Assembly (NCBI GenBank): GCA_933228675.1
Contig: OW121742.1
Coordinates: 123,667,983 to 123,731,982 of the forward strand
Direction: 5' to 3'
DNA: 64,000 nucleotides
DNA from: Stomorhina lunata
Taxonomy: Eukaryota; Arthropoda; Insecta; Diptera; Rhiniidae
Made by a program: the position numbers and the translations under genes. Positions 1-55,540 of this stretch are shown here, one piece after another. The notes under the pieces were generated by a model. That model had not been told where the DNA came from, made no database searches, and saw only the letters and a list, made by a program, of their open reading frames with translations. The first letter of the stretch is position 1. Each line of letters starts with the position of its first letter.

Positions 1-3000
1 TGTTCTAGTTCTGTTCTAGTTCTGTTCTAGTTCTGTTCTAGTTCTGTTCTAGTTCTGTTCTAGTTCTGTTCTAGTTCTGTTCTAGTTCTGTTCTAGTTCT
101 GTTCTAGTTCTGTTCTAGTTCTGTTCTAGTTCTGTTCTAGTTCTGTTCTAGTTCTGTTCTAGTTCTGTTCTAGTTCTGTTCTAGTTCTGTTCTAGTTCTG
201 TTCTAGTTCTGTTCTAGTTCTGTTCTAGTTCTGTTCTAGTTCTGTTCTAGTTCTGTTCTAGTTCTGTTCTAGTTCTGTTCTAGTTCTGTTCTAGTTCTGT
301 TTTAGTTCTGTTCTAGTTCTGTTCTAGTTCTGTTCTAGTTCTGTTCTAGTTCTGTTCTAGTTCTGTTCTAGTTCTGTTCTAGTTCTGTTCTAGTTCTATT
401 CTAGTTCTATTCTAGTTCTGTTCTAGTTCTGTTCTAGTTCTGTTCTAGTTCTGTTCTAGTTCTGTTCTAGTTCTGTTCTAGTTCTGTTCTAGTTCTGTTC
501 TAGTTCTGTTCTAGTTCTGTTCTAGTTCTGTTCTAGTTCTGTTCTAGTTCTGTTCTAGTTCTGTTCTAGTTCTGTTCTAGTTCTGTTCTAGTTCTGTTCT
601 AGTTCTGTTCTAGTTCTGTTCTAGTTCTGTTCTAGTTCTGTTCTAGTTCTGTTCTAGTTCTGTTCTAGTTCTGTTCTAGTTCTGTTCTAGTTCTGTTCTA
701 GTTCTGTTCTAGTTCTGTTCTAGTTCTGTTCTAGTTCTGTTCTAGTTCTGTTCTAGTTCTGTTCTAGTTCTGTTCTAGTTCTGTTCTAGTTCTGTTCTAG
801 TTCTGTTCTAGTTCTGTTCTAGTCCTGTTCTAGTTCTGTTCTAGTTCTGTTCTAGTTCTGTTCTAGTTCTGTTCTAGTTCTGTTCTAGTTCTGTTCTAGT
901 TCTGTTCTAGTTCTGTTCTAGTTCTGTTCTAGTTCTGTTCTAGTTCTGTTCTAGTTCTGTTCTAGTTCTGTTCTAGTTCTGTTCTAGTTCTGTTCTAGTT
1001 CTGTTCTAGTTCTGTTCTAGTTCTGTTCTAGTTCTGTTCTAGTTCTGTTCTAGTTCTGTTCTAGTTCTGTTCTAGTTCTGTTCTAGTTCTGTTCTAGTTC
1101 TGTTCTAGTTCTGTTCTAGTTCTGTTCTAGTTCTGTTCTAGTTCTGTTCTAGTTCTGTTCTAGTTCTGTTCTAGTTCTGTTCTAGTTCTGTTCTAGTTCT
1201 GTTCTAGTTCTGTTCTAGTTCTGTTCTAGTTCTGTTCTAGTTCTGTTCTAGTTCTGTTCTAGTTCTGTTCTAGTTCTGTTCTAGTTCTGTTCTAGTTCTG
1301 TTCTAGTTCTGTTCTAGTTCTGTTCTAGTTCTGTTCTAGTTCTGTTCTAGTTCTGTTCTAGTTCTGTTCTAGTTCTGTTCTAGTTCTGTTCTAGTTCTGT
1401 TCTAGTTCTGTTCTAGTTCTGTTCTAGTTCTGTTCTAGTTCTGTTCTAGTTCTGTTCTAGTTCTGTTCTAGTTCTGTTCTAGTTCTGTTCTAGTTCTGTT
1501 CTAGTTCTGTTCTAGTTCTGTTCTAGTTCTGTTCTAGTTCTGTTCTAGTTCTGTTCTAGTTCTGTTCTAGTTCTGTTCTAGTTCTGTTCTAGTTCTGTTC
1601 TAGTTCTGTTCTAGTTCTGTTCTAGTTCTGTTCTAGTTCTGTTCTAGTTCTGTTCTAGTTCTGTTCTAGTTCTGTTCTAGTTCTGTTCTAGTTCTGTTCT
1701 AGTTCTGTTCTAGTTCTGTTCTATTTCTGTTCTAGTACTGTTCTAGTTCTGTTCTAGTTCTGTTCTAGTTCTGTTCTAGTTCTGTTCTAGTTCTGTTCTA
1801 GTTCTGTTCTAGTTCTGTTCTAGTTCTGTTCTAGTTCTGTTCTAGTTCTGTTCTAGTTCTGTTCTAGTTCTGTTCTAGTTCTGTTCTAGTTCTGTTCTAG
1901 TTCTGTTCTAGTTCTGTTCTAGTTCTGTTCTAGTTCTGTTCTAGTTCTGTTCTAGTTCTGTTCTAGTTCTGTTCTAGTTCTGTTCTAGTTCTGTTCTAGT
2001 TCTGTTCTAGTTCTGTTCTAGTTCTGTTCTAGTTCTGTTCTAGTTCTGTTCTAGTTCTGTTCTAGTTCTGTTCTAGTTCTGTTCTAGTTCTGTTCTAGTT
2101 CTGTTCTAGTTCTGTTCTAGTTCTGTTCTAGTTCTGTTCTAGTTCTGTTCTAGTTCTGTTCTAGTTCTGTTCTAGTTCTGTTCTAGTTCTGTTCTAGTTC
2201 TGTTCTAGTTCTGTTCTAGTTCTGTTCTAGTTCTGTTCTAGTTCTGTTCTAGTTCTGTTCTAGTTCTGTTCTAGTTCTGTTCTAGTTCTGTTCTAGTTCT
2301 GTTCTAGTTCTGTTCTAGTTCTGTTCTAGTTCTGTTCTAGTTCTGTTCTAGTTCTGTTCTAGTTCTGTTCTAGTTCTGTTCTAGTTCTGTTCTAGTTCTG
2401 TTCTAGTTCTGTTCTAGTTCTGTTCTAGTTCTGTTCTAGTTCTGTTCTAGTTCTGTTCTAGTTCTGTTCTAGTTCTGTTCTAGTTCTGTTCTAGTTCTGT
2501 TCTAGTTCTGTTCTAGTTCTGTTCTAGTTCTGTTCTAGTTCTGTTCTAGTTCTGTTCTAGTTCTGTTCTAGTTCTGTTCTAGTTCTGTTCTAGTTCTGTT
2601 CTAGTTCTGTTCTAGTTCTGTTCTAGTTCTGTTCTAGTTCTGTTCTAGTTCTGTTCTAGTTCTGTTCTAGTTCTGTTCTAGTTCTGTTCTAGTTCTGTTC
2701 TAGTTCTGTTCTAGTTCTGTTCTAGTTCTGTTCTAGTTCTGTTCTAGTTCTGTTCTAGTTCTGTTCTAGTTCTGTTCTAGTTCTGTTCTAGTTCTGTTCT
2801 AGTTCTGTTCTAGTTCTGTTCTAGTTCTGTTCTAGTTCTGTTCTAGTTCTGTTCTAGTTCTGTTCTAGTTCTGTTCTAGTTCTGTTCTAGTTCTGTTCTA
2901 GTTCTGTTCTAGTTCTGTTCTAGTTCTGTTCTAGTTCTGTTCTAGTTCTGTTCTAGTTCTGTTCTAGTTCTGTTCTAGTTCTGTTCTAGTTCTGTTCTAG

Positions 3001-3700
3001 TTCTGTTCTAGTTCTGTTCTAGTTCTGTTCTAGTTCTGTTCTAGTTCTGTTCTAGTTCTGTTCTAGTTCTGTTCTAGTTCTGTTCTAGTTCTGTTCTAGT
3101 TCTGTTCTAGTTCTGTTCTAGTTCTGTTCTAGTTCTGTTCTAGTTCTGTTCTAGTTCTGTTCTAGTTCTGTTCTAGTTCTGTTCTAGTTCTGTTCTAGTT
3201 CTGTTCTAGTTCTGTTCTAGTTCTGTTCTAGTTCTGTTCTAGTTCTGTTCTAGTTCTGTTCTAGTTCTGTTCTAGTTCTGTTCTAGTTCTGTTCTAGTTC
3301 TGTTCTAGTTCTGTTCTAGTTCTGTTCTAGTTCTGTTCTAGTTCTGTTCTAGTTCTGTTCTAGTTCTGTTCTAGTTCTGTTCTAGTTCTGTTCTAGTTCT
3401 GTTCTAGTTCTGTTCTAGTTCTGTTCTAGTTCTGTTCTAGTTCTGTTCTAGTTCTGTTCTAGTTCTGTTCTAGTTCTGTTCTAGTTCTGTTCTAGTTCTG
3501 TTCTAGTTCTGTTCTAGTTCTGTTCTAGTTCTGTTCTAGTTCTGTTCTAGTTCTGTTCTAGTTCTGTTCTAGTTCTGTTCTAGTTCTGTTCTAGTTCTGT
3601 TCTAGTTCTGTTCTAGTTCTGTTCTAGTTCTGTTCTAGTTCTGTTCTATTTCTGTTATAGTTCTGTTCTAGTTCGTTCTAGTTCTATTCTAGTTTTATTC
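1..3700. repeat. 11-bp tandem satellite, unit TGTTCTAGTTC
   Basis: The unit TGTTCTAGTTC repeats head to tail from the first base to about 3646, roughly 330 copies, then decays over the last ~50 bases (a one-base-short unit and several substitutions near 3646-3700). Internal variants are very rare: a TTTTAG unit near 300, two TATTCTAG units near 398-412, one C substitution near 824, and a pair of variants near 1722-1737. The array is cut by the window start, so its true length is unknown. Near-absence of indels over 3.6 kb implies recent amplification or strong homogenisation, although assembly collapse or expansion could also change the copy number. It has no coding potential. I do not recognise this satellite by name. 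Confidence 0.98.
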
Positions 3701-5379
3701 CCTACTATCCCACAACTCTGCTAACAGCCTTAATCTTTCCTATCTTGTTACCAGATTCTTACAATTACTTTCTCACTAATGTTCCATATCCGTATCCTCC
3801 TTACAAACACTTATACAATTACAGCTAACATATACCCCTTCTTTCAATGAATAAACGCATTGGCACAACAAAAAAGGATAAAGTCATAATTGCATAAGTA
3901 CTGTTGTAACTCTCTCATACTCATCATTATCCTCATCCTGATCCAAACTCAAATAAATACAAAATGTAACAAATAGAAGCAAAATAAAATTGTATAACAT
4001 TCATCATAATCAAGTGCTTGTAGTCATTGAGTCCTGTTTGGAGGATATTTTTTTTTCTCTTGCTCTGTATAGGATAGAAAGTAAGGCAACAAAAAACAAA
4101 ATAGGAAAAATATAAAACGTTGAATTATATAATGAAACAAAGTATTATCAACGATAAGGAAGTTGTTTTGGGTTGTTAAGTGTTGCCTTACTAAGTAGAA
4201 ACAGAGTCGAGTACACCAGCAGCGGAGTGAAGTGGTAGTTCAGGCAGACGGATGGAAGGACGGACGGACGTAGGACTTGGAGTAAAAAGTACTTCTAACT
4301 GTTAAATGGATAGACAGACGACTGTGTAACAAACATGAGTGGCAATAACAAAATACTCTAAATGTTACTGAAGTTTTCCGATTCTATTATTGTTTTTTTT
4401 TTTTGTGTGTAGATTCATGGCAATATTTTCCTCAGCTACCGGAAAACAAAAGGGGCATAAACAGATTGCAACAAAATAAATGAGACATTTAGAGAAAAAT
4501 TCTGTAATATACAAGGAAAATAAGCCTTTCAAAATAGCAATAATTTATTATGACTATGGAAATTTTTCATAGCAACTAAAAAGGATTTAAGGCCATTACT
4601 CAGTAGAGGTTTCAGGAGTCGTTGTATATTATATTAAAAGTTTTGATTCACCTGTGTTCTTCGCTAGAGTACTTTACTCCTTATAAATGTATCTTTTAGA
4701 TCTTTTTATGTCAGTTATATTGTATTTTTCTTTTTTTATAACATTTACTTTTGTTTTGGGTATAATTTCAATAGAAATGTCTGTATCTGTATCTATTTCT
4801 TCTTCTAGCAGAAAACCAGAAGGAGGCAAATGTTTGAATCTACACAAAGTTTTTTTTTTTTTTTGTAAATTTTATTTCTTGTTGGTTACAATTAGATTTG
4901 TAGATTGTTTAAGCTTTAAACTTTTATTTGTCATTTGACAATAATAATAATAATGATGAGTTGTTTTTGTTTTACAAAAACTCTTGTCGTAAGTACTTAA
5001 ATATAGAGATATAGATTTTTTGCTAAAAGACAGACAGAAAGTCAGACGGACTTTCATTCTCTTGTTGAGTCCTTGTATTTTGTATTTAATGTTTTTTGCT
5101 ATATAAATATGAAAATAAGTTTTTATCTAAACGAGATTTTTATAAACTTTGGAGACAACATTAAAGTTTCTGTCTTCTTGTTTTTACTTATTTCAGGATT
5201 ATTTTGAGATGTGATTAAAGTATCAGAGTAATTAACCCAGAAACAAATTAGTTTAGAGGGAATTTAAATTAAAAACTTGAAACTAAAATTAAAAAATATA
5301 TAAAATTTAAAGTTTCTATGTAATTTTTTGAAATCTAGAGTAATTTTTACTTTAAAATAAAAATTTTTGAAATTTATAA
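3701..5379. other. AT-rich non-coding DNA beside the satellite
   Basis: No gene is recognisable. The stretch holds a GGAC/GGAT-rich microsatellite-like patch (about 4248-4276), T runs near 4389-4402 and 4850-4864, and a short ATA/ATG triplet run near 4939-4958. The open frame at 4687-4938 is rich in Phe, Ser and Leu, with a T-run-encoded Phe tract, and has no family signature. Confidence 0.6.
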
Positions 5380-7135: not shown

Positions 7136-7297
7136 GTCACCACCCACAGAGCTTTATGACAGCTAAAACATTCCTTCCATGTTTTTCATAAACTCTAATA
7201 CAAACACAGATTCTATGATATATAGATTTTTTTGTAAATCAATGTATGTGTATTACACTTTGAAAAAAAAAAAGGTTTGGGTCTATTTTTGTGATTT

Positions 7298-7660
7298 TTC
7301 TAATCATATTATGATCTCATATATTAAAAAATCGATCATCCAATCTAACGTTATCAAGAAATGTTCCCAGCTTATTCTTCTAATTATAAAATGATCTGAA
7401 ATGATGATATTAAAAAATCGATCATTCAATCTAACATTATCAAGAAATGTTCCCACCTTATTCTTCTAATCATAAAATGATCTCATATCAGTGAGAAAAA
7501 AATAAGGTTTGCTATGACTACGGCTAACTTTTTCTAATCATAATATGATCTTAAACATCAAGATAATCAAGAAATGTTCCCAGTTTATTCTTCACCATCA
7601 AGAAATGTTCCCAGTTTATTCTTCACCATCGAGTTTATTCTTCTAATTATAATATGTTCT
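7298..7660. repeat. Short tandem array of ~84-bp units, left flank of the foldback element
   Basis: Units start near 7300, 7381, 7467 and, more degenerate, 7539. Each begins with a near-palindrome of the type TAATCATAATATGATC and contains TATCAAGAAATGTTCCCA and CTTATTCTTC. The later copies are partly collapsed, with CAAGAAATGTTCCCAGTTTA repeated at short spacing near 7570-7620. The same near-palindrome occurs in inverted form on the other side of the foldback element (about 17983-17997). This suggests the flanks belong to one older repeat that the element split. Confidence 0.75.
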
Positions 7661-7687
7661 CGTATATTGACCATTTTTGTCACTCTG

Positions 7688-7696
7688 GCTAACAGT
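7688..7696 (+). repeat. Left target-site duplication GCTAACAGT
   Basis: Nine bases directly before the left inverted terminus are repeated, identical and in the same orientation, directly after the right terminus (17755-17763). A perfect 9-bp direct repeat abutting both ends is the usual mark of a transposition event. Confidence 0.92.
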
Positions 7697-7876
7697 ATGT
7701 GTGTGAAGATAAATTCGAATTTAACTAGCAAAGACAAAAACCACAATTTTTAGCAGAGCCAATTTTGTAGTCAACAGAGCACTGTAAACAGTTTAACAGT
7801 AATGTTAAATACTATACTGGAGTTAGTTTTGACGAATTTTGAGGTATATGGATATATATAAGAATATACAATATTG
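7697..7876 (+). repeat. Left terminal inverted-repeat domain, unique part
   Basis: This is non-repetitive sequence between the target-site duplication and the first tandem unit. It is reverse-complementary to 17575-17754 with one mismatch seen (near 7849). It is the likely transposase-recognition end, by analogy with other terminal-inverted-repeat elements. Confidence 0.88.
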
Positions 7877-8002
7877 GGAACGGGTACTCCAAAGGGTCCA
7901 GTTTGATACTGTATAAGTCGTTTTCCTAAAATAATCTTGGAATTTTAGAAAAATATGGTTTAAAATTATATGTTGTCAAAAAATTCTCAGAAGAAGCTGG
8001 GC

Positions 8003-11000
8003 CTCAAAAATGGCCAAAAATGGAATTGTACACGTATACCACTATATGGAGCGGGTACTCCAAAGGGTCCTAATTGTCACTGTATAAGTGGTTTTCCCCA
8101 AATAATCTTGGGATTTTTTAAAAATAATATTGAAAATTTTAGTTTTTTGAAAAATCTAGAGAAGATGAATTTGCTCAAAAATGGCCAAAAATGGAATTGT
8201 ACACGTATACCACTATATGAAGCGGGTACTCCAAAGGATCCTAATTGACACTGTATAAGTGGTTTTCCCCAAATAATCTTGGAATTTTTTTAAAAAAATT
8301 TTGAACATTTTTCGAAAAATCTGGGGAAGATGAAAATGCTCAAAAATGGCCAAAAATGGAATTGTACACGTATACCACTATATGGAGCGGGTACTCCAAA
8401 GGGTCCTAATTAACACTGGATAAGTGGTTTTCCCCAAATAATCTTGGGATTTTTTTAAAAAAATTTTGAAAAATTTTCGAAAAATCTGGGGAAGATGAAT
8501 TTGCTCAAAAATGGCCAAAAATGGAATTGTACACGTATACCACTATATGGAGCGGGTACTCCAAAGGGTCCTAATTGTCACTGTATAAGTGGTTTTCCCC
8601 AAATAATCTTGGGATTTTTTAAAAATAATATTGAAAATTTTAGTTTTTTGAAAAATCTAGAGAAGATGAATTTGCTCAAAAATGGCCAAAAATGGAATTG
8701 TACACGTATACCACTATATGAAGCGGGTACTCCAAAGGATCCTAATTGACACTGTATAAGTGGTTTTCCCCAAATAATCTTGGAATTTTTTTAAAAAAAT
8801 TTTGAAAATTTTTCGAAAAATCTGGGGAAGATGAAAATGCTCAAAAATGGCCAAAAATGGAATTGTACACGTATACCACTATATGGAGCGGGTACTCCAA
8901 AGGGTCCTAATTAACACTGGATAAGTGGTTTTCCCCAAATAATCTTGGGATTTTTTAAAAATAATATTGAAAATTTTAGTTTTTTGAAAAATCTAGAGAA
9001 GATGAATTTGCTCAAAAATGGCCAAAAATGGAATTGTACACGTATACCACTATATGAAGCGGGTACTCCAAAGGATCCTAATTGACACTGTATAAGTGGT
9101 TTTCCCCAAATAATCTTGGAATTTTTTTAAAAAAATTTTGAAAATTTTTCGAAAAATCTGGGGAAGATGAAAATGCTCAAAAATGGCCAAAAATGGAATT
9201 GTACACGTATACCACTATATGGAGCGGGTACTCCAAAGGGTCCTAATTAACACTGGATAAGTGGTTTTCCCCAAATAATCTTGGGATTTTTTTTTAAAAA
9301 TTTTGAAAAATTTTCGAAAAATCTGGGGAAGATGAATTTGCTCAAAAATGGCCAAAAATGGAATTGTACACGTATACCACTATATGGAGCGGGTACTCCA
9401 AAGGGTCCTAATTGTCACTGTATAAGTGGTTTTCCCCAAATAATCTTGGGATTTTTTTTTTTAAATTTTGAAAAATTTTCGAAAAATCTGGGGAAGATGA
9501 ATTTGCTCAAAAATGGCCAAAAATGGAATTGTACACGTATACCACTATATGGAGCAGGTACTCTAAAGGGTCTTAATTGACACTGGATAAGTGGTTTTCT
9601 CTAAATAATCTTGGGATTTTTTTAAAAAAATTTTGAAAATTTTTCGAAAAATCTGGGGAAGATGAAGTTGCTCAAAAATGGCCAAAAATGGAATTGTACA
9701 CGTATACCACTATATGGAGCGGGTACTCCAAAGGGTCCTAATTAACACTGGATAAGTGGTTTTCCCCAAATAATCTTGGGATTTTTTTAAAAAAATTTTG
9801 AAAAATTTTCGAAAAATCTGGGGAAGATGAAAATGCTCAAAAATGGCCAAAAATGGAATTGTACACGTATACCACTATATGGAGCGGGTACTCCAAAGGG
9901 TCCTAATTAACACTGGATAAGTGGTTTTCCCCAAATAATCTTGGGATTTTTTAAAAATAATATTGAAAATTTTAGTTTTTTGAAAAATCTAGAGAAGATG
10001 TAGTTACTCAAAAATGGCCAAAAATGGAATTCTACACGTATACCACTATATGAAGCGGGTACTCCAAAGGGTCCTAATTGTCACTGTATAAGTGGTTTTC
10101 CCCAAATAATCTTGGGATTTTTTTTTTTAAATTTTGAAAAATTTTCGAAAAATCTGGGGAAGATGAATTTGCTCAAAAATGGCCAAAAATGGAATTGTAC
10201 ACGTATACCACTATATGGAGCAGGTACTCTAAAGGGTCTTAATTGACACTGGATAAGTGGTTTTCTCTAAATAATCTTGGGATTTTTTTAAAAAAATTTT
10301 GAAAATTTTTCGAAAAATCTGGGGAAGATGAAGTTGCTCAAAAATGGCCAAAAATGGAATTGTACACGTATACCACTATATGGAGCGGGTACTCCAAAGG
10401 GTCCTAATTAACACTGGATAAGTGGTTTTCCCCAAATAATCTTGGGATTTTTTTAAAAAAATTTTGAAAACTTTTCGAAAAATCTGGGGAAGATGAATTT
10501 GCTCAAAAATGGCCGAAAATGGAATTGTACACGTATACCACTATATGGAGCGGGTACTCCAAATGGTCCTAATTAACACTGGATAAGTGGTTTTCCCCAA
10601 ATAATCTTGGGATTTTTTTTTTAAATTTTGAAAAATTTTCGAAAAATCTGGGGAAGATGAATTTGCTCAAAAATGGCCAAAAATGGAATTGTACACGTAT
10701 ACCACTATATGGAGCGGGTACTCCAAAGGGTCCTAATTGTCACTGTATAAGTGGTTTTCCCCAAATAATCTTGGGATTTTTTAAAAATAATATTGAAAAT
10801 TTTAGTTTTTTGAAAAATCTAGAGAAGATGAATTTGCTCAAAAATGGCCAAAAATGGAATTGTACACGTATACCACTATATGAAGCGGGTACTCCAAAGG
10901 ATCCTAATTGACACTGTATAAGTGGTTTTCCCCAAATAATCTTGGAATTTTTTTAAAAAAATTTTGAACATTTTTCGAAAAATCTGGGGAAGATGAAAAT

Positions 11001-13856
11001 GCTCAAAAATGGCCAAAAATGGAATTGTACACGTATACCACTATATGGAGCGGGTACTCCAAAGGGTCCTAATTAACACTGGATAAGTGGTTTTCCCCAA
11101 ATAATCTTGGGATTTTTTTAAAAAAATTTTGAAAAATTTTCGAAAAATCTGGGGAAGATGAATTTGCTCAAAAATGGCCAAAAATGGAATTGTACACGTA
11201 TACCACTATATGGAGCGGGTACTCCAAAGGGTCCTAATTGTCACTGTATAAGTGGTTTTCCCCAAATAATCTTGGGATTTTTTAAAAATAATATTGAAAA
11301 TTTTAGTTTTTTGAAAAATCTAGAGAAGATGAATTTGCTCAAAAATGGCCAAAAATGGAATTGTACACGTATACCACTATATGAAGCGGGTACTCCAAAG
11401 GATCCTAATTGACACTGTATAAGTGGTTTTCCCCAAATAATCTTGGAATTTTTTTAAAAAAATTTTGAAAATTTTTCGAAAAATCTGGGGAAGATGAAAA
11501 TGCTCAAAAATGGCCAAAAATGGAATTGTACACGTATACCACTATATGGAGCGGGTACTCCAAAGGGTCCTAATTAACACTGGATAAGTGGTTTTCCCCA
11601 AATAATCTTGGGATTTTTTAAAAATAATATTGAAAATTTTAGTTTTTTGAAAAATCTAGAGAAGATGAATTTGCTCAAAAATGGCCAAAAATGGAATTGT
11701 ACACGTATACCACTATATGAAGCGGGTACTCCAAAGGATCCTAATTGACACTGTATAAGTGGTTTTCCCCAAATAATCTTGGAATTTTTTTAAAAAAATT
11801 TTGAAAATTTTTCGAAAAATCTGGGGAAGATGAAAATGCTCAAAAATGGCCAAAAATGGAATTGTACACGTATACCACTATATGGAGCGGGTACTCCAAA
11901 GGGTCCTAATTAACACTGGATAAGTGGTTTTCCCCAAATAATCTTGGGATTTTTTTTTAAAAATTTTGAAAAATTTTCGAAAAATCTGGGGAAGATGAAT
12001 TTGCTCAAAAATGGCCAAAAATGGAATTGTACACGTATACCACTATATGGAGCGGGTACTCCAAAGGGTCCTAATTGTCACTGTATAAGTGGTTTTCCCC
12101 AAATAATCTTGGGATTTTTTTTTTTAAATTTTGAAAAATTTTCGAAAAATCTGGGGAAGATGAATTTGCTCAAAAATGGCCAAAAATGGAATTGTACACG
12201 TATACCACTATATGGAGCAGGTACTCTAAAGGGTCTTAATTGACACTGGATAAGTGGTTTTCTCTAAATAATCTTGGGATTTTTTTAAAAAAATTTTGAA
12301 AATTTTTCGAAAAATCTGGGGAAGATGAAGTTGCTCAAAAATGGCCAAAAATGGAATTGTACACGTATACCACTATATGGAGCGGGTACTCCAAAGGGTC
12401 CTAATTAACACTGGATAAGTGGTTTTCCCCAAATAATCTTGGGATTTTTTTAAAAAAATTTTGAAAAATTTTCGAAAAATCTGGGGAAGATGAAAATGCT
12501 CAAAAATGGCCAAAAATGGAATTGTACACGTATACCACTATATGGAGCGGGTACTCCAAAGGGTCCTAATTAACACTGGATAAGTGGTTTTCCCCAAATA
12601 ATCTTGGGATTTTTTAAAAATAATATTGAAAATTTTAGTTTTTTGAAAAATCTAGAGAAGATGTAGTTACTCAAAAATGGCCAAAAATGGAATTCTACAC
12701 GTATACCACTATATGAAGCGGGTACTCCAAAGGGTCCTAATTGTCACTGTATAAGTGGTTTTCCCCAAATAATCTTGGGATTTTTTTTTTTAAATTTTGA
12801 AAAATTTTCGAAAAATCTGGGGAAGATGAATTTGCTCAAAAATGGCCAAAAATGGAATTGTACACGTATACCACTATATGGAGCAGGTACTCTAAAGGGT
12901 CTTAATTGACACTGGATAAGTGGTTTTCTCTAAATAATCTTGGGATTTTTTTAAAAAAATTTTGAAAATTTTTCGAAAAATCTGGGGAAGATGAAGTTGC
13001 TCAAAAATGGCCAAAAATGGAATTGTACACGTATACCACTATATGGAGCGGGTACTCCAAAGGGTCCTAATTAACACTGGATAAGTGGTTTTCCCCCAAA
13101 TAATCTTGGGATTTTTTTAAAAAAATTTTGAAAATTTTTCGAAAAATCTGGGGAAGATGAATTTGCTCAAAAATGGCCGAAAATGGAATTGTACACGTAT
13201 ACCACTATATGGAGCGGGTACTCCAAATGGTCCTAATTAACACTGGATAAGTGGTTTTCCCCAAATAATCTTGGGATTTTTTTTTTAAATTTTGAAAAAT
13301 TTTCGAAAAATCTGGGGAAGATGAATTTGCTCAAAAATGGCCAAAAATGGAATTGTACACGTATACCACTATATGGAGCGGGTACTCCAAAGGGTCCTAA
13401 TTGTCACTGTATAAGTGGTTTTCCCCAAATAATCTTGGGATTTTTTAAAAATAATATTGAAAATTTTAGTTTTTTGAAAAATCTAGAGAAGATGAATTTG
13501 CTCAAAAATGGCCAAAAATGGAATTGTACACGTATACCACTATATGAAGCGGGTACTCCAAAGGATCCTAATTGACACTGTATAAGTGGTTTTCCCCAAA
13601 TAATCTTGGAATTTTTTTTTTTAAATTTTGAAAAATTTTCGAAAAATCTGGGGAAGATGAATTTGCTCAAAAATGGCCGAAAATGGAATTGTACACGTAT
13701 ACCACTATATGGAGCGGGTACTCCAAAGGGTCCTAATTAACACTGGATAAGTGGTTTTCCCCAAATAATCTTGGGATTTTTTAAAAATAATATTGAAAAT
13801 TTTAGTTTTTTGAAAAATCTAGAGAAGATGAATTTGCTCAAAAATGGCCAAAAATG
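8003..13856 (+). repeat. Left array of ~167-bp tandem units with 2,663-bp higher-order duplication
   Basis: Each unit contains ATGGCCAAAAATGGAATTG, ACACGTATACCACTATATGG, AGCGGGTACTCCAAAGGGTC and a GTGGTTTTCCCCAAATAATC box, followed by a variable A/T spacer. Units are mostly 166-168 bp and differ by diagnostic variants: GGAGC or GAAGC, GGGTCC or GGATCC, short or long spacer with TTTTAGTTTTTTG. A block of 2,663 bp (8003-10665) is repeated in tandem at 10666-13329 with very few differences, one being an extra C near 13095. A partial third block follows. Short frames recur in every repeat; I read them as repeat translation, not genes. Confidence 0.93.
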
Positions 13857-13863
13857 TATATAT
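13857..13863. other. Junction between the opposed arms
   Basis: A TATATAT-type spacer of about seven bases separates the last plus-oriented unit, broken off within its ATGGCCAAAAATG box, from the first minus-oriented unit, broken off within its GTCACTGTATA box. The two arms therefore meet at non-equivalent points of the unit, with almost no loop. Confidence 0.85.
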
Positions 13864-16800
13864 TATACAGTGACAATTAGGACCCTTTGGAGTACCCGCT
13901 CCATATAGTGGTATACGTGTACAATTCCATTTTTGGCCATTTTTGAGCAAATTCATCTTCCCCAGATTTTTCGAAAATTTTTCAAAATTTTTAAAAAAAA
14001 ATCCCAAGATTATTTGGGGAAAACCACTTATCCAGTGTTAATTAGGACCCTTTGGAGTACCCGCTCCATATAGTGGTATACGTGTACAATTCCATTTTTG
14101 GCCATTTTTGAGCATTTTCATCTTCCCCAGATTTTTCGAAAAATTTTCAAAATTTTTTTAAAAAAATTCCAAGATTATTTGGGGAAAACCACTTATACAG
14201 TGTCAATTAGGATCCTTTGGAGTACCCGCTTCATATAGTGGTATACGTGTACAATTCCATTTTTGGCCATTTTTGAGCAAATTCATCTTCTCTAGATTTT
14301 TCAAAAAACTAAAATTTTCAATATTATTTTTAAAAAATCCCAAGATTATTTGGGGAAAACCACTTATCCAGTGTTAATTAGGACCCTTTGGAGTACCCGC
14401 TCCATATAGTGGTATACGTGTACAATTCCATTTTTGGCCATTTTTGAGCATTTTCATCTTCCCCAGATTTTTCGAAAAATTTTCAAAATTTTTTTAAAAA
14501 AATTCCAAGATTATTTGGGGAAAACCACTTATACAGTGTCAATTAGGATCCTTTGGAGTACCCGCTTCATATAGTGGTATACGTGTACAATTCCATTTTT
14601 GGCCATTTTTGAGCAAATTCATCTTCTCTAGATTTTTCAAAAAACTAAAATTTTCAATATTATTTTTAAAAAATCCCAAGATTATTTGGGGAAAACCACT
14701 TATACAGTGACAATTAGGACCCTTTGGAGTACCCGCTCCATATAGTGGTATACGTGTACAATTCCATTTTTGGCCATTTTTGAGCAAATTCATCTTCCCC
14801 AGATTTTTCGAAAATTTTTCAAAATTTTTTTAAAAAAATCCCAAGATTATTTGGGGAAAACCACTTATCCAGTGTTAATTAGGACCCTTTGGAGTACCCG
14901 CTCCATATAGTGGTATACGTGTACAATTCCATTTTTGGCCATTTTTGAGCATTTTCATCTTCCCCAGATTTTTCGAAAAATGTTCAAAATTTTTTTAAAA
15001 AAATCCCAAGATTATTTGGGGAAAACCACTTATCCAGTGTTAATTAGGACCCTTTGGAGTACCCGCTCCATATAGTGGTATACGTGTACAATTCCATTTT
15101 TGGCCATTTTTGAGCAACTTCATCTTCCCCAGATTTTTCGAAAAATTTTCAAAATTTTTTTAAAAAAATCCCAAGATTATTTAGAGAAAACCACTTATCC
15201 AGTGTCAATTAAGACCCTTTAGAGTACCTGCTCCATATAGTGGTATACGTGTACAATTCCATTTTTGGCCATTTTTGAGCAAATTCATCTTCCCCAGATT
15301 TTTCGAAAATTTTTCAAAATTTAAAAAAAAAAATCCCAAGATTATTTGGGGAAAACCACTTATACAGTGACAATTAGGACCCTTTGGAGTACCCGCTTCA
15401 TATAGTGGTATACGTGTAGAATTCCATTTTTGGCCATTTTTGAGTAACTACATCTTCTCTAGATTTTTCAAAAAACTAAAATTTTCAATATTATTTTTAA
15501 AAAATCCCAAGATTATTTGGGGAAAACCACTTATCCAGTGTTAATTAGGACCCTTTGGAGTACCCGCTCCATATAGTGGTATACGTGTACAATTCCATTT
15601 TTGGCCATTTTTGAGCATTTTCATCTTCCCCAGATTTTTCGAAAATTTTTCAAAATTTTTTTAAAAAAATCCCAAGATTATTTGGGGAAAACCACTTATC
15701 CAGTGTTAATTAGGACCCTTTGGAGTACCCGCTCCATATAGTGGTATACGTGTACAATTCCATTTTTGGCCATTTTTGAGCAACTTCATCTTCCCCAGAT
15801 TTTTCGAAAAATTTTCAAAATTTTTTTAAAAAAATCCCAAGATTATTTAGAGAAAACCACTTATCCAGTGTCAATTAAGACCCTTTAGAGTACCTGCTCC
15901 ATATAGTGGTATACGTGTACAATTCCATTTTTGGCCATTTTTGAGCAAATTCATCTTCCCCAGATTTTTCGAAAATTTTTCAAAATTTAAAAAAAAAAAT
16001 CCCAAGATTATTTGGGGAAAACCACTTATACAGTGACAATTAGGACCCTTTGGAGTACCCGCTCCATATAGTGGTATACGTGTACAATTCCATTTTTGGC
16101 CATTTTTGAGCAAATTCATCTTCCCCAGATTTTTCGAAAATTTTTCAAAATTTTTAAAAAAAAATCCCAAGATTATTTGGGGAAAACCACTTATCCAGTG
16201 TTAATTAGGACCCTTTGGAGTACCCGCTCCATATAGTGGTATACGTGTACAATTCCATTTTTGGCCATTTTTGAGCATTTTCATCTTCCCCAGATTTTTC
16301 GAAAAATTTTCAAAATTTTTTTAAAAAAATTCCAAGATTATTTGGGGAAAACCACTTATACAGTGTCAATTAGGATCCTTTGGAGTACCCGCTTCATATA
16401 GTGGTATACGTGTACAATTCCATTTTTGGCCATTTTTGAGCAAATTCATCTTCTCTAGATTTTTCAAAAAACTAAAATTTTCAATATTATTTTTAAAAAA
16501 TCCCAAGATTATTTGGGGAAAACCACTTATCCAGTGTTAATTAGGACCCTTTGGAGTACCCGCTCCATATAGTGGTATACGTGTACAATTCCATTTTTGG
16601 CCATTTTTGAGCATTTTCATCTTCCCCAGATTTTTCGAAAAATTTTCAAAATTTTTTTAAAAAAATTCCAAGATTATTTGGGGAAAACCACTTATACAGT
16701 GTCAATTAGGATCCTTTGGAGTACCCGCTTCATATAGTGGTATACGTGTACAATTCCATTTTTGGCCATTTTTGAGCAAATTCATCTTCTCTAGATTTTT

Positions 16801-17754
16801 CAAAAAACTAAAATTTTCAATATTATTTTTAAAAAATCCCAAGATTATTTGGGGAAAACCACTTATACAGTGACAATTAGGACCCTTTGGAGTACCCGCT
16901 CCATATAGTGGTATACGTGTACAATTCCATTTTTGGCCATTTTTGAGCAAATTCATCTTCCCCAGATTTTTCGAAAATTTTTCAAAATTTTTTTAAAAAA
17001 ATCCCAAGATTATTTGGGGAAAACCACTTATCCAGTGTTAATTAGGACCCTTTGGAGTACCCGCTCCATATAGTGGTATACGTGTACAATTCCATTTTTG
17101 GCCATTTTTGAGCATTTTCATCTTCCCCAGATTTTTCGAAAAATGTTCAAAATTTTTTTAAAAAAATTCCAAGATTATTTGGGGAAAACCACTTATACAG
17201 TGTCAATTAGGATCCTTTGGAGTACCCGCTTCATATAGTGGTATACGTGTACAATTCCATTTTTGGCCATTTTTGAGCAAATTCATCTTCTCTAGATTTT
17301 TCAAAAAACTAAAATTTTCAATATTATTTTTAAAAAATCCCAAGATTATTTGGGGAAAACCACTTATACAGTGACAATTAGGACCCTTTGGAGTACCCGC
17401 TCCATATAGTGGTATACGTGTACAATTCCATTTTTGGCCATTTTTGAGGCCCAGCTTCTTCTGAGAATTTTTTGACAACATATAATTTTAAACCATATTT
17501 TTCTAAAATTCCAAGATTATTTTAGGAAAACGACTTATACAGTATCAAACTGGACCTTTTGGAGTACCCGTTCCCAATATTGTATATTCTTATATATATC
17601 TATATACCTCAAAATTCGTCAAAACTAACTCCAGTATAGTATTTAACATTACTGTTAAACTGTTTACAGTGCTCTGTTGACTACAAAATTGGCTCTGCTA
17701 AAAATTGTGGTTTTTGTCTTTGCTAGTTAAATTCGAATTTATCTTCACACACAT
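13864..17754 (-). repeat. Right arm of the foldback element (3,891 bp)
   Basis: This is the reverse complement of the left arm: about 22 units plus the terminal domain. Mirror comparison matches the left arm out to about 9580 without net length change and is one base off at the 10657 landmark. Near the centre the register slips by about 500 bp, which fits loss of three ~167-bp units (501 bp) from the right arm or gain on the left. Confidence 0.88.
17575..17754 (-). repeat. Right terminal inverted-repeat domain, unique part
   Basis: Reverse complement of 7697-7876, ending CTTCACACACAT directly against the second copy of the 9-bp duplication. Confidence 0.88.
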
Positions 17755-17763
17755 GCTAACAGT
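17755..17763 (+). repeat. Right target-site duplication GCTAACAGT
   Basis: Identical to 7688-7696. Removing the element and one copy would restore a continuous pre-insertion site. Confidence 0.92.
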
Positions 17764-17796
17764 CAATATAAACAACTTAATATATGATCTCGCATT

Positions 17797-17902
17797 CTCA
17801 AGATAGATCAGACCAATCATAAGTATGGTTAAATTTTAATTAAGCCCATAAAAATGATAATTTAATTCAATCATTACTATGATTGGTGTGATTTATCTTG
17901 AG
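17797..17902. repeat. Inverted repeat in the right flank (~28-bp arms)
   Basis: Arm 1 (17797-17825) begins CTCAAGATAGATCA and arm 2 (17875-17902) ends TGATTTATCTTGAG; they pair imperfectly around a ~50-base A/T loop. With the inverted TAATCATAATATGATC copy near 17983-17997, the flank looks like part of an older palindromic repeat split by the foldback element. Confidence 0.65.
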
Positions 17903-19229
17903 TTCGGTTGATCATATTTTAATTTGATAAGATGTTATTGTGATCCAGGGAGAGAAGAGTTGATATACATGTATAAAATAAGATCATATTATGATTAGGG
18001 AACAAGCTGTGATGATTTTCAGTGGATTAATGTAATAGTCAAAATCATTTTTATTTCATATGACCAGTTTCTATATCATTATAATATAATCGAGATATCA
18101 GTAGAATCATAATATAACCACATATAATTTTTAAGCTCAATAATTTTATAATACTATGATTGACAAATAGTTTTTTGAGAATTTCTTTAAGTGCATGTAA
18201 GACCATTAGAACTGACCATTGTTGCTGTTTAAGGCTGCCACGTTTGCCAGCTACTGCATCAGATCCTGCTATCGTTGTTGTTACATGAAAAACGAGACAA
18301 AAGGCTTAAAAGGATGCACGTACAGGTCATGCACTCTTGTGAATCTTGTGTATATATGTATACCTACTAAACAAAAATATTCTTTAAAAAAACATAAACT
18401 TACAGACATACTAATACATATGAATATATAACTACTGTGTAAGTATTTGTATGCTTTATTCAGGCATATACAAATGATGTACGTAGCTTTACATTCTAAA
18501 CGCATTGTTCCAAAAATTCATACTGTTATGGTCCTCTAGTAAGTCTTACTCCTCCATATACATAAAAATATATACATTTTTGTTTTTTTAGGATTTTTTT
18601 TTTTAAATAACAACCGTATTCAAAAATATTTTTAGTTTTTGTGCTCTCATTCAAAATATGTCAGAAGCCATTGTTGTTATTTTTTGAGCTTACAAACGTT
18701 CGATTGTTTAGAGTCTTCTATAAGCCAACGAACGAGAGGGCGGCAGATTTCTATAGTTCTACAGAGTTATATGATGTTTTGCTCTGATGTTGATGTAAGA
18801 GATGATGATGATGATTTTTCTGCTTCTGTTTGTTGACCAGGAGACAGCCATAGCAGCAGCCAAGCAGGCTATTGTTAGTTTAGTTGCAGTTGATGTTCTT
18901 GGGATGAAATATCAAAAAATAACTAAATATTCAAACAAACAAACAAACTACTACTACTATTTAGCAACAACAAGAACAACATTATTTTCCAATGAAGCCC
19001 TACTACCAACAACATTGAATGTTTTCAGCATCAACTCTTACTAAAAACTACACAAATAACAGAGTTATGTATGCGTTAAGCATACAATATTAGTTAAAAG
19101 CAACCAAATACCATGTACTTGTATTTCTTTACCATATCTATGGAATTTTACACACAGCAGCCCAGTTCAGAATCAGTAAAAACTACATCATTTTAATAGT
19201 AAGCCAACTGACTGTGACAGTTTTAAGTT
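17903..19229. other. Mixed non-coding DNA
   Basis: No gene is recognisable. A GAT triplet run lies at about 18796-18816, and 18190-18510 and 18830-19060 are less A/T-biased than their surroundings. The short frames at 18219-18431 and 18802-19044 show no domain, biased codon use or splice context I can support. Confidence 0.5.
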
Positions 19230-25869: not shown

Positions 25870-26660
25870 TTATAAAGCTTTCGTTAAGAAATGGTTCTCC
25901 AGGAAAAGAAGCTTTCATATAAGAACTAATTTTTAAGAAAGGATAATGTTTTGAAATATTTTCTTAGAAAAACTTTCTTTTTAATAAGGTTTTTACGAAA
26001 AAACTTTCTTTTGAATCCAGTTTTTATAGAAAAGCTATTATTTAAGAACTACGAAAAAATTTTCTTTTAAATCAAGTTTTTATAGAAAAGCTTTTTTTCT
26101 AAATAAAGCATTCACTTGAGAAGTAAAACATTGTAAAGAAACATTTTTAATAAAGAAACGATTTTAAAGAAAGATTTTGTAGAAAAGATTTTGCTTGAGA
26201 AAGGTTTCATAGAAAAGCTTTCATTTAAGAGAGGTTTTTATAGAAAAGCTTTCGTCTTAGAAAGATTTTTATAAAAAAGCTTAGGTTTGAGAAAGGCTTT
26301 CGTAGAAAAGCTTTTGTTTGAGAATGGATTTTATAGCAAAGCTTTCGTTTGAGAAGGGTTTTTATAGAAAGCTTTCATTTGGAAAAGATTTTGTATAGAA
26401 AAGCTTTCGTTTGAGAAAGGTTTTTAAAGAAAAGCTTTCTCTTGAGAAAGGTTTTTATAGAAAAGCTCTCGTTTGAGAAAGTTTTTTATAGAAAAGCTTT
26501 CGTTTAAGAAATTTTTTTAGAAAAGCTTTCGTTAGAGAAATGTTTTTATAGAAAAGCTTTCGTTTAAGAAAGGATTTATAGAAAAGCTTTCGCCTGAGAA
26601 ATATTTTTATACAGAAGCTTTCCTATAACAATCGATTTTATAGAAAAGATTTCGTTTTAA
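25870..26660. repeat. ~31-bp tandem array around GAAAAGCTTTCGTTTGAGAA
   Basis: About 20-25 imperfect units, each with ATAGAAAAGCTTTCGTTTGA and GAAAGGTTTTT, the first few being more diverged. The core contains AAAGCTTT, an 8-bp palindrome. Unit length varies by a base or two. No open frame persists. Confidence 0.9.
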
Positions 26661-35000: not shown

Positions 35001-36839
35001 ACTTCTAATTAAATCTCATTTTTAAACTGATTTACATTCATATCTATTATTTGTGTGTGTGTGAAGGTTCAAGTACTCAATAAATGTATGCAAATCGGAA
35101 AAGTGAACTCCTCTTTTCATTTATTTCCTTTAATTTCTTCTTGCTGGGGTGTTTTTCAACTGCTACAAGCTGGCAGTTTAATAGGGATTTTAAATTGATT
35201 ACCTCTGCCACGTTAAGTACTCAATCACTTTTGAAATCAACGTAGAACCATACTTTTTTGTATATACTTATATATGTATGAACATATATTTTTAAAGAGG
35301 ACATAAGTACTGATAAATTTTATATATAAAAAAAATATATCTAAAGTGGAGGGATAAGTAGATGCATAAATTCAGGCAGAACTTTACTTTAAATGAGTGT
35401 TTGTAAGCAGTAAGGTCCTTAAAAATGTCACAGACCTATAAAATACTTGAAACTTAAGCAGCTTCACTCAAACAAATTTATACAATCATCATCAGCAGCC
35501 ACCTTCTGCTACAAAAGGATTCAAACCCAACAACACCCCCTTATTTTTTGATAACCCACAAAACCATACAATACTTTAGGTTACAGGATGAAAAAAAAAG
35601 AAATAAAATAAATGAAAAACTACTTTTAACAAAAAAAAATCAGTTTTTTAAAATACCCACGAAATGAATGAAAATGTATGAATGAATGGATGAATGTGCA
35701 TTCAAATCAAGTCAAACGTTAAAACGATGACTTTTGCATACAAGATGTATTGGTTGTAATATTACATTTAGGAGTAAAACAGACGGCTATAACGGAAAGA
35801 CAGAGACCACGGATGAACACATTTCCCTCTAGATTTTTAAATAGGACAGAGGAAGAGTGTCAATATGCTAAATAAAAAATCTTCAAGCTAGTGGTAAATG
35901 CACTGAAAGTACCAGCAAAAAAAGCAGGAATTTGCAAATGGAAATGGCAAAATGAAAATAAATAGTCCTGGTACAATACCCAACCATTAACTTGAGTATA
36001 AAACTTCGGCTCGGAAAGCAAAAAAAAAAAAACACTGAATAAAAACCTATAAGAACATACAAAAATCTCATACAACTGAACACAAAAATATAATAAAGCA
36101 AAAAAAAAAAAGGAAAAGATTTTTTTCTGAGGAAAATAAACTGCAAATCTACATACAGGGCAGCACTTAAACGATTTTAAAAGTGTATTAAAAAAGCAGT
36201 GACTGTGAAAAAAGTGTTTAAGAAGTAGGAGTAAAATATATGCATGTGTTAGTCTTTTACCCAAACATTTGTTAAACCAACAAAAAAATCTCTAGGATTT
36301 GCAAGAACCCGCAGCCAGTTCAAAGAGGTGTTCTTCTGCGTTCTTCTTTAATGTTGGCAAATAGGCAAAACATTTATGTTCGTTTTCTGGTATAGGTCTC
36401 TGTGTGTATATGTGTCTGTGTCTGGTTGACAAATATTCTTTTTTTTTCTCTTTCCTCTTCCTTATTGTTGATTTTTTATGGTTTTTAGCTTGATTTAATT
36501 CATATGGCAAGAGTTTTTATACTTGGTATTTGTTTGCGAGCAAAAAATGTAAACCATTAAACGAATTAATGTTTACTTTACACTTAAAACATTCATAGTG
36601 CATTATTCAATTCCTATTTTTTGGCTCTAAAGTTGCTCAAGCCTGAAAAATCTTATACGAACAAAAAGAAGGCAAAGAATTACCAAATATTGATAAGAAA
36701 TTCAATTTTTTTTAAATAATTAAAGATCTTGACTTTAATTTAGGATTTTTGATTGAAAACTTGAAGAAATACAAGAAAAAATATAATAATTTAAATATTC
36801 TTCGAAATTTCAATGATTTTCTTAGAAAAAAAAAATTGT
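35001..36839. other. AT-rich to mixed non-coding DNA
   Basis: This holds the longest non-array frame of the window (35860-36264, minus, 134 codons), rich in Phe, Leu and Cys from A-rich plus-strand DNA. It has no domain, homology or splice context that I recognise. A second minus frame (36292-36510) is more mixed in composition but equally unsupported. Short GT/AT and GAATGAATG patches are present. Confidence 0.5.
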
Positions 36840-37265: not shown

Positions 37266-37359
37266 ATTTGTTGAATAAACATAACAAAATTTAGGCAAAA
37301 AAATAGTTCAAAATTTTACCAAGAATTGCAATTACAAGAGAAATTAGGAAAATAATTTT

Positions 37360-38130
37360 CTACAGAAAAATTTTGATAAAAAAATTTTTGAAAAAAAAAA
37401 TTCTATAAAAAGTTTTTGATAAGAAAAATTTTTTGATAAAAAAATTTTCTATAGAAAATTTTTGATAAAAAAATTTTCTATAGAAAAATTTTTGATAAAA
37501 AAATTTTCCATAGAAAAATTTTTGATAAAAAAATTTTCTATAGAAAAATTTTTGATAAGAAAATTTTCTATAGAAAAATTTTTGATAAGAAAATTTTCTA
37601 TAGAAAAATGTTTGATAAACAAATTGTCTATAGAAAAATTTTTGATAAAAAAAATTTTCTATATTAAAATTTTCAAAAAAAAATTTTCTATAGAAAGGTT
37701 TAAAAAAAAAATTCTATATAAAAATTTTTGATAACAAAAATTTTCTATATAAACATTTTTTTATCAAAAAATTTTCTATAGAAAAATTTTTAATAAAAAA
37801 ATTTTCTATAGAAAAATTTTTGATAAAAAAATTTTCTATAGAAAAATTTTTGATAAAAAAATTTTCTGTAGAAAAATTTTTGATAAAAAAATTTTCTATA
37901 GAAAAATTTTTGATAAAAAAATTTTCTATAGAAAAAATTTTTGATAAAAAAATTTTCTATAGAAAAAATTTTTATAAAACAAAGTTTCAATAGAAAAATT
38001 TTTGATAAAAAAATTTTCTGCAGAAAAATTTTTGATAAAAAAATTTTGTATAGAAAAATTTTTGATAAAAAAAATTTTGTATAGAAAAATTTTTGATAAA
38101 AAAAAATGTCTATATGATAATCTCAAAAAA
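37360..38130. repeat. 30-bp array built on palindrome TTTTCTATAGAAAA, GATAAAA spacer
   Basis: The unit is TTTTCTATAGAAAA plus TTTTTGATAAAAAAA, 30 bp in most copies, with about 20-25 copies and decayed edges. The core is a perfect 14-bp palindrome, so both strands carry similar open frames (a 10-residue repeat); these are not genes. One spacer near 37757 is inverted (TTTTTTATCAAAAAA). The same core forms the larger array at 53.4-55.5 kb. Confidence 0.93.
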
Positions 38131-53380: not shown

Positions 53381-55540
53381 AAAATTTTTCCATAGAAAAT
53401 TTTTTTATAAAAATTTTTTCTATAAAAAAATGTTTCTATAGAAATTTTTTCTGTAGAAAATTTTTTGAGAAAATTTTTCTATAGAAAATTTTTTGAGAAA
53501 ATTTTTCTATAGAAAATTTTTTGAGAAAATTTTTCTATAGAAAATTTTTCTATAGAAAATTTTTTGAGAAAATTTTTCTATAGAAAATTTTTTGAGAAAA
53601 TTTTTCTATAGAAAATTTTTTGAGAAAATTTTTCTATAGAAAATTTTTTGAGAAAATTTTTCTATAGAAAATTTTTTGAGAAAATTTTTCTATAGAAAAT
53701 TTTTCTATAGAAAATTTTTCTATAGAAAATTTTTCTATAAAAAATGTTTGTATAGAAAAATTTTCGAGAAAATTTTTTATAGACAATTTTTCGACAAAAT
53801 TTTTTTGTAGAAAATTTTTTGAGAAAATTTTCCCAAAATTTTTCGAGAAAATTTTTCTATAAAAAATTTTTCGAGAAAATTTTCCTATAGCAAAATTTTT
53901 GATCGAAAAATTTTCTATAGAAAAATTTGTGATCGAAAAATTTTCTATAGAAAAATTTTTGATCGAAAAATTTTCTATAGAAAAATTTTTAATCGAAAAA
54001 TTTTCTATAGAAAAATTTTTAATCGAAAAATTTTCTATAGAAAAATTTTTGATCGAAAAATTTTCTATCAAAAATTTTTGATCAAAAAATTTTCTATAGA
54101 AAAATTTTTGCATAGAAAATTTTTCTATAAAAATTTTTTCTATAAAAAAATGTTTCTATAGAATTTTTTTTTGTAGAAAATTTTTTGAAAAAATTTTTCT
54201 ATAGAAAATTTTTTGAGAAAATTTTTCTATAGAAAATATTTTGAGAAAATTTTTCGATCACAAATTTTTCTATAGAAAATTTTTCGATCAAAAATTTTTC
54301 TATATAGGAAAATTTTCTCGAAAAATTTTTTAAAGAAAAATTTTTTATAGGAAAATTTTCTACAGAAAAATTTTGTCGAAAAATTTTCTGAAAAAATTTT
54401 CTATATAAAATTTTTTGAGGAAATTTTTCTATAGAAAATTTTTTGAGAAAATTTTTCTATAGAAAATTTTTTGAGAAAATTTTTCTATAGAAAATTTTTT
54501 GAGAAAATTTTTCTATAGAAAATTTTTTAAGAAAATTTTTCTATAGAAAATTTTTCTATAGAAAATTTTTCGAGAAAATTTTTTAATAAAAAATTTTTGT
54601 ATAGAAAAATTTTCGAGAAAATTTTTTATAGACAATTTTTTGACAAAATCTGTAGAAAATTTTCCTATAAAAAATTTTTCTTTAAAAAATTTTTCGAGAA
54701 AATTTTCCTATATAGAAAAATTTTTGATCGAAAAATTTTCTATAGAAAAATTTGTGATCGAAAAATTTTCTATAGAAAATTTTTTTTCTATAGAAAATTT
54801 TTCGATCAAAAATTTTTCTATAGAAAATTTTTCTATCAAAAATTTTTCAATAGAAAATTTTTCGATCAAAAATGTTTCTATAGAGAACTTTTCGATCAAA
54901 AATTTTTCTATAGAAAATTTTTCAATCAAAAATTTTTCTATAGAAAATTTTTCAATCTAAAATGTTTCTATAGAAAATTTTTCAATAAAAAATTTTTCTA
55001 TAGAAAATTTTTCAATAAAAAATTTTTCTATAGTAAGTTTTTCAATAAAAAATTTTTCTATAGAAAATTCTTCAATCAAAATTCAATCAATTTTCATAAA
55101 AACTTTACCTATTGAAAATTATTCGATAAAAAGTTTTTCTATAAAAAATGTTTCAATGGAAAATTTTTTCTATAAACTATTTTCTATAGAAAATTTTTCT
55201 ATACAAATTTTTCGATAAAAACTTTGTATCTACAAAATTTTTCTATAAAAAATTTTTATCTAGAAAATTTTTCGATAAAAAATTTTGATAGAAAAATTTT
55301 CGTTAGAAAATTTTTCGATAAAAAATTTTTCTACAGGGAATTTTTTTTATGAAAAATTTTTCTACAGAAAATTTTTCGATCAAAAATATTTTAGATAAAA
55401 AATTTAGCTATAGAAAATTTTCGGAAATATTTTTCGAAAAATTTTTTTCTGTAGAAATTTTTTTGATAACAAATTTTTTGAAAACAAATTTTTCTATAGA
55501 AAATTTTTCTATAGAGAATTTCTCGATAAAAAATTTGAAA
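53381..55540. repeat. Large compound array on palindrome TTTTCTATAGAAAA
   Basis: Sub-arrays differ in spacer and period. About 53381-53720 has a 28-bp unit with TTTTTTGAGAAAA; 53890-54110 a 30-bp unit with TTTTTGATCGAAAA; 54170-54540 the 28-bp form again; 54715-54778 the 30-bp GATCG form again; 54785-55090 the same 30-bp unit inverted (TTTTTCGATCAAAAA or TTTTTCAATCAAAA). 55090-55540 is degenerate. The segment about 53745-53960 is duplicated at 54595-54785, with shared oddities such as TTATAGACAATTTTT and TTTGTGATCG. Long frames on both strands (159 and 172 codons) are low-complexity translations of the array, not genes. Confidence 0.93.

Follow-up and report, generated by a model that had tools for sequence, protein, structure and literature searches.

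A foldback element of 10,058 bp occupies positions 7697-17754 of the window, i.e., the whole 64,000-nucleotide stretch of Stomorhina lunata DNA that was analysed, and lies between perfect copies of the 9-bp target-site duplication GCTAACAGT. The insertion is real and well preserved. The element probably derives from a cut-and-paste transposon, most likely one of the Mutator/Rehavkus group, as a non-autonomous foldback with two arms. In this reading, the interior was lost and one arm was copied from the other. What is unusual here is the length of the arms and the higher-order repeat common to both of them, whereas the length of the repeat unit is not new.

Ends of the element and insertion site

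The two copies of the target-site duplication were located by string search and comparison of the element ends, and the terminal domains by comparison of the ends with each other:

7688..7696, plus strand: target-site duplication GCTAACAGT, left copy
7697..7864, plus strand: left terminal domain, 168 bp of unique sequence with the 14-bp palindrome TAAATTCGAATTTA, from end comparison
17587..17754, minus strand: right terminal domain, from its inverted identity to the left end
17755..17763, plus strand: target-site duplication GCTAACAGT, right copy

The sequence GCTAACAGT has exactly two sites on both strands of the whole window (7688-7696 and 17755-17763), and these directly adjoin the element ends ATGTGTGTGAAG and CTTCACACACAT. 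The chance of a 9-bp match between the flanks is 2.4e-5 when calculated from base composition. When pairs of 9-mers were drawn at random from the window without the element and without the 11-bp satellite described below, 228 of 2,000,000 pairs were identical. The outer 400 bp of both ends are inverted copies of each other (398/400 identical), and this inverted identity breaks off exactly at the 9-bp duplication. With up to three mismatches allowed, the 20-bp terminus was found at the two element ends only (0.01 occurrences expected in the window), and no second copy of the termini was found elsewhere in the window. The 9-mer and terminus statistics rule out chance or a composition effect as the source of the duplication and the termini. 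The proposal of the sequence-only reading that this is a foldback of about 10 kb with a perfect 9-bp duplication is thus confirmed by the two sites of GCTAACAGT and by the inverted outer 400 bp.

Short repeated and inverted motifs, e.g., CTAATCATAATATGATCT, are present in both flanks (7285-7665 and 17773-18010), so the element may have inserted into, or next to, an older patch of repeats. Other repeats were observed further away. The window opens with an 11-bp satellite array of TGTTCTAGTTC at 1-3694 (~336 copies, 99% match). At 37349-38104 and 53381-55536, there are diverged arrays of 15 and 30 bp built around a TTTTCTATAG core, both with inverted repeats within them, and a 31-bp unit forms an array of 16 copies (79% match) at 26168-26657.

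Structure of the arms and order of their units

Both arms follow the same plan: the 168-bp terminal domain is followed by one divergent unit (157 bp aligned) and then by a tandem array. The left arm is 6,160 bp long and the right arm 3,892 bp. Between the terminal domains, the element consists of the following parts:

7865..8021, plus strand: divergent first unit of the left arm, 157 bp aligned, from alignment to the array units
8022..13856, plus strand: left array with 35 anchored units of 164-171 bp, 34 of them complete and the last one cut at the centre
13857..13862, no strand assigned: spacer TATATA, 6 bp, between the arrays
13863..17429, minus strand: right array with 22 anchored units, 21 of them complete; the unit order of the left arm is kept on either side of one jump
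17430..17586, minus strand: first unit of the right arm, divergent, located through its similarity to the left arm

Tandem arrays of ~167-bp units, which had been proposed for the arms from the letters of the DNA, were therefore recovered on both sides (35 and 22 anchored units of 164-171 bp). The 55 complete units (34 left and 21 right) fall into 16 exact types with lengths from 164 to 171 bp, and their G+C content is 0.33 compared to 0.24 in the flanks. Identity between the divergent first unit and the array units is 70-77%. Their local alignment spans nearly the whole unit and reached a score of 136, whereas none of 200 base shuffles scored above 32. Because this alignment is of near-full length and scores far above the shuffles, the array probably grew out of the subterminal divergent unit. 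The element thus has long inverted termini composed of a terminal domain and tandem repeats, together with a target-site duplication at the insertion, as is characteristic of the foldback class. Three open reading frames of at least 120 aa are present in the window and none of them lies inside the element, which rules out a coding interior down to this ORF length.

The order of the unit types reveals a higher-order repeat. The first 16 units of the left array are of types 1,2,3,1,4,5,4,6,7,8,9,10,11,8,12,13. The same 16-unit series then follows again with type 14 in place of type 12, and the array ends with types 1,15 and the cut unit. Read from the outside in, the right array has the order 1,2,3,1,4,5,4,6,7,8,9,10,11,8,16, then 3,1,4,5,4,6 and a cut unit. 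It therefore follows the higher-order unit order both before and after type 16. Types 12 to 15 occur in the left arm only and type 16 in the right arm only. The positions that describe this order are:

8024..10686, plus strand: higher-order repeat copy 1 (16 units, 2,663 bp), from unit typing
10687..13349, plus strand: higher-order repeat copy 2 (2,663 bp), from unit typing
10469..10968, plus strand: 500-bp stretch, equal in length to three units (165+164+171), that the right arm misses if the jump is read in this way (a second reading is equally good)

The opening 2,410 bp of copy 2 are identical to copy 1 with zero differences. Tiling of the right arm with the left arm showed that its 3,892 bp equal the left arm with two substitutions and one 500-bp, three-unit jump. 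Positions 1-2772 of the right arm match the left arm except for two mismatches, at 154 and 198, and positions 2773-3892 are exact to positions 3273-4392 of the left arm and equally to positions 610-1729. Both mismatches fall outside the array, but little weight can be put on only two events.

At the jump, unit R15 combines a prefix of L15 with a suffix of either L18 or L2, and the two parts overlap by 22 bp in an A/T-rich tract. Several other unit types fit the prefix as well, and the donor of R15 is therefore not fixed. The structure of R15 is such as an unequal exchange would leave, and it is typical of an exchange between out-of-register units. Eight of the 16 unit types can each be composed as a two-parent mosaic of other types and eight cannot. 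Some of the mosaics are reciprocal, so they are not all independent.

At the centre of the element, the arrays meet out of phase, with the left unit and the right unit cut at different points. When the two arms were compared over 160 nt at offsets of 0-399 nt, good hairpin pairing required that either 106 nt of the left arm (153/160 paired) or 395 nt of the right arm (160/160) be dropped. The real loop of the folded strand would therefore be ~110 nt or more. The earlier description of the arms as meeting almost without a loop is accurate for the arrays, which are separated by a 6-bp spacer, but not for the folded strand.

Near-exact arms and an exact higher-order repeat resemble the errors that arise in repeat assembly, and a palindromic read or collapsed repeats could have produced mirror arms. 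A simple mirror artefact of this kind is disfavoured by structured differences between the arms, namely their lengths (6,160 compared to 3,892 bp), the two substitutions, the whole-unit jump and their private types. In addition, the mirror identity ends at the element ends, while the 9-bp duplication is direct. We consider an assembly or chimeric-read artefact very improbable, although the copy number of the units could nevertheless be wrong.

Comparison with known foldback elements

FB of Drosophila melanogaster has the foldback form of the element described here and a 9-bp duplication, but its units of 10-31 bp are far shorter. The target-site duplications of hAT elements are 8 bp long. Foldback denotes a form and not a lineage: most foldback elements are assigned to Mutator (PMC4079207), and Galileo belongs to the P superfamily (PMC3573991). 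The comparisons below follow the available parts of the cited papers.

The element with the closest description is Rehavkus-1_TC of Tribolium castaneum, which contains the satellite TCsat23. It is 9.5 kb long, and its inverted termini contain tandem copies of a 164-bp satellite unit (PMC10218199). Compared by description, its arrays are mostly of five and eight units, in contrast to 35 and 22 in the element (PMC10218199). Satellite or minisatellite units in or next to the termini are a Rehavkus character that is also found in the element, as judged against Rehavkus-1_TC, where both termini contain them. Duplications of 9 bp and a transposase with a PHD finger are described for the Rehavkus group (PMC6446971). 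The element has the 9-bp duplication, but no ORF of at least 120 aa is present in it. The group is further described with a minisatellite before the 3' TIR and with TIRs of 26-400 bp, in contrast to arrays in both arms here, and the fit to the group is therefore looser than that to Rehavkus-1_TC (PMC6446971). The 9-bp duplication also lies within the range of 8-11 bp given for MULEs (PMC6446971).

Tetris of D. virilis and D. americana is likewise a non-autonomous foldback, in which each TIR consists of a flanking domain followed by a variable tandem array (PMC4079207). Its unit has a 37-bp stretch in common with the flanking domain, which can be compared to the divergent unit of the element. 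The duplications of 8-10 bp, the AT-rich units and the growth into kb-size arrays are further similarities (PMC4079207). In contrast, the Tetris unit is ~220 bp long compared to 164-171 bp in the element, TIRs are reported up to 1,735 bp, and Tetris has inner and middle domains that are missing in the element (PMC4079207). Long foldback-derived arrays are already known, since as many as 66 copies of the Tetris unit can be found in satellite-like arrays (PMC4079207). PMC12628747 and PMC12910113 name Tetris only in passing or in the reference list. Galileo subfamily F of D. mojavensis resembles the element in its long TIRs with ~210-bp internal tandem repeats, and its longest TIRs are in copies that lack the transposase (PMC3573991). 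It differs in belonging to the P superfamily, in having two or three repeats, and in TIRs that reach ~1.26 kb (PMC3573991). Its duplications are 7 bp compared to 9 bp here, and on this ground the element does not qualify as a Galileo (PMC3573991).

Muta1 of Aedes (PMC5225508) and Tm1 of Meloidogyne (PMC3169594) are MULEs with foldback-type TIRs and duplications of 8-9 or 9 bp. Both have subterminal tandem repeats in the TIRs and derivatives that vary in repeat number, but their units are 12-15 bp long, coding relatives are known, and the TIR of Muta1 measures 145 bp (PMC5225508, PMC3169594). Among the Aedes MULE families, 14/14 have 8-9-bp duplications, and 9-15-bp subterminal tandem repeats are found in 10/12 of the families with long TIRs (PMC5225508). 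The longest MULE TIR in a survey of 4,268 arthropod genomes is 1,193 bp, which is not a like-for-like limit because the survey counts transposase-bearing copies (PMC13359780). With 6,160 and 3,892 bp, the arms of the element are well beyond the TIR lengths given for the elements compared here. In contrast, the unit length is not a ground for an undescribed family, as had been suggested by the sequence-only reading, because Rehavkus-1_TC (164 bp), Tetris (~220 bp) and Galileo F (~210 bp) are already described with long units.

These comparisons bear on the superfamily to which the element belongs. That the element is a foldback of convergent form from a different superfamily of transposases (P/Galileo-like, hAT or Merlin) is unlikely. 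Galileo demonstrates that a member of the P superfamily can acquire long TIRs with ~210-bp internal repeats, but its duplications are 7 bp long (PMC3573991). The 9 bp of the element fit the 8-11 bp of MULEs and the 9 bp of Rehavkus (PMC6446971), as well as the 8-9 bp of Aedes MULEs (PMC5225508). The assignment to Mutator is based on duplication length and architecture, and the foldback form also arose in the P superfamily (Galileo). From these two features, a Mutator-type origin is plausible. The FB/Mutator-like architecture seen by the sequence-only reading thus stands in part, namely with respect to the foldback form and the 9-bp duplication.

Searches for relatives gave no matches. Exact patterns from the element (four in viral contigs and two in prokaryote genome contigs) had 0 matches, as did its first 704 bp when compared to plasmids and phages. 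Zero matches say little about an insect element because these collections are viral, prokaryote, plasmid and phage. Three terminus strings were also searched in the literature, where the 16 papers containing at least one of them look unrelated by title or start of the abstract. In the whole window, 0 matches to 4,227 Rfam families were found at the gathering score, and ARAGORN with the bacterial code predicted 0 genes. None of 10 ORFs outside the element, which were hand-picked from the 70 longest less the low-complexity ones, had a Pfam match above the curated cut-off. An open frame of 143 codons at 35863-36291 on the minus strand gives a RING-like match that is weak and does not reach the Pfam cut-off (E 0.012), and is possibly an exon.

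History of the element

In the proposed history, a Mutator-like transposase encoded elsewhere would have bound the termini, and perhaps the units too, and moved the element. The tandem repeats of Galileo are described as containing transposase binding sites (PMC3688188). The subterminal unit would have given rise to the array as units exchanged unequally or slipped against each other. Interrupted gap repair after an excision may have caused the loss of the transposase interior and joined two unequal array ends through the 6-bp filler. Deletion derivatives of MuDR are stated to come from interrupted repair (PMC10288884, citing earlier work). One arm would have been copied from the other, either afterwards or in the same event. 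Several points speak against this history. The junction is the single feature that points to interrupted gap repair, and its 6-bp spacer could reflect simple end joining. Eight of the 16 unit types cannot be composed from two of the other observed types, and the array may have grown after insertion instead of moving at full size.

The last point corresponds to a different history of the array, in which a short element with two TIRs and few units inserted and its arms expanded in place, so that the 10-kb form never moved. Such recent growth fits the whole-unit jumps and the two copies of the higher-order repeat in the left arm, which are identical over 2,410 bp. For Tetris, a difference of one unit was described between alleles of a single site, and the long arrays were read as having grown inside the element (PMC4079207). 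However, the unit order common to the arms on both sides of the single jump requires arm-to-arm copying besides, and a single copy does not separate growth before insertion from growth after it. As an account of the array, expansion in place is possible and is partly compatible with the derivation from a Mutator/Rehavkus transposon that we prefer.

For the two-arm derivative of such a transposon, the intact duplication, the boundaries and the readable unit order mean that one copy records how foldback arms grow and how their likeness is maintained. Whole-unit jumps and arm-to-arm copying would account for arms that grow and stay alike. Tentatively, the arms may evolve as one, with a higher-order satellite inside a mobile element being copied whole between arms that are far longer than those of the foldbacks compared. 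Through transposition, hairpin conversion and unequal exchange together, such an element would serve as a travelling nursery of satellites. The available parts of the Tribolium (PMC10218199) and Tetris (PMC4079207) papers leave it open whether satellites are spread by the transposons that contain them or expand after insertion. If other copies of the element have the same unit order, this order would provide a direct test between the two.
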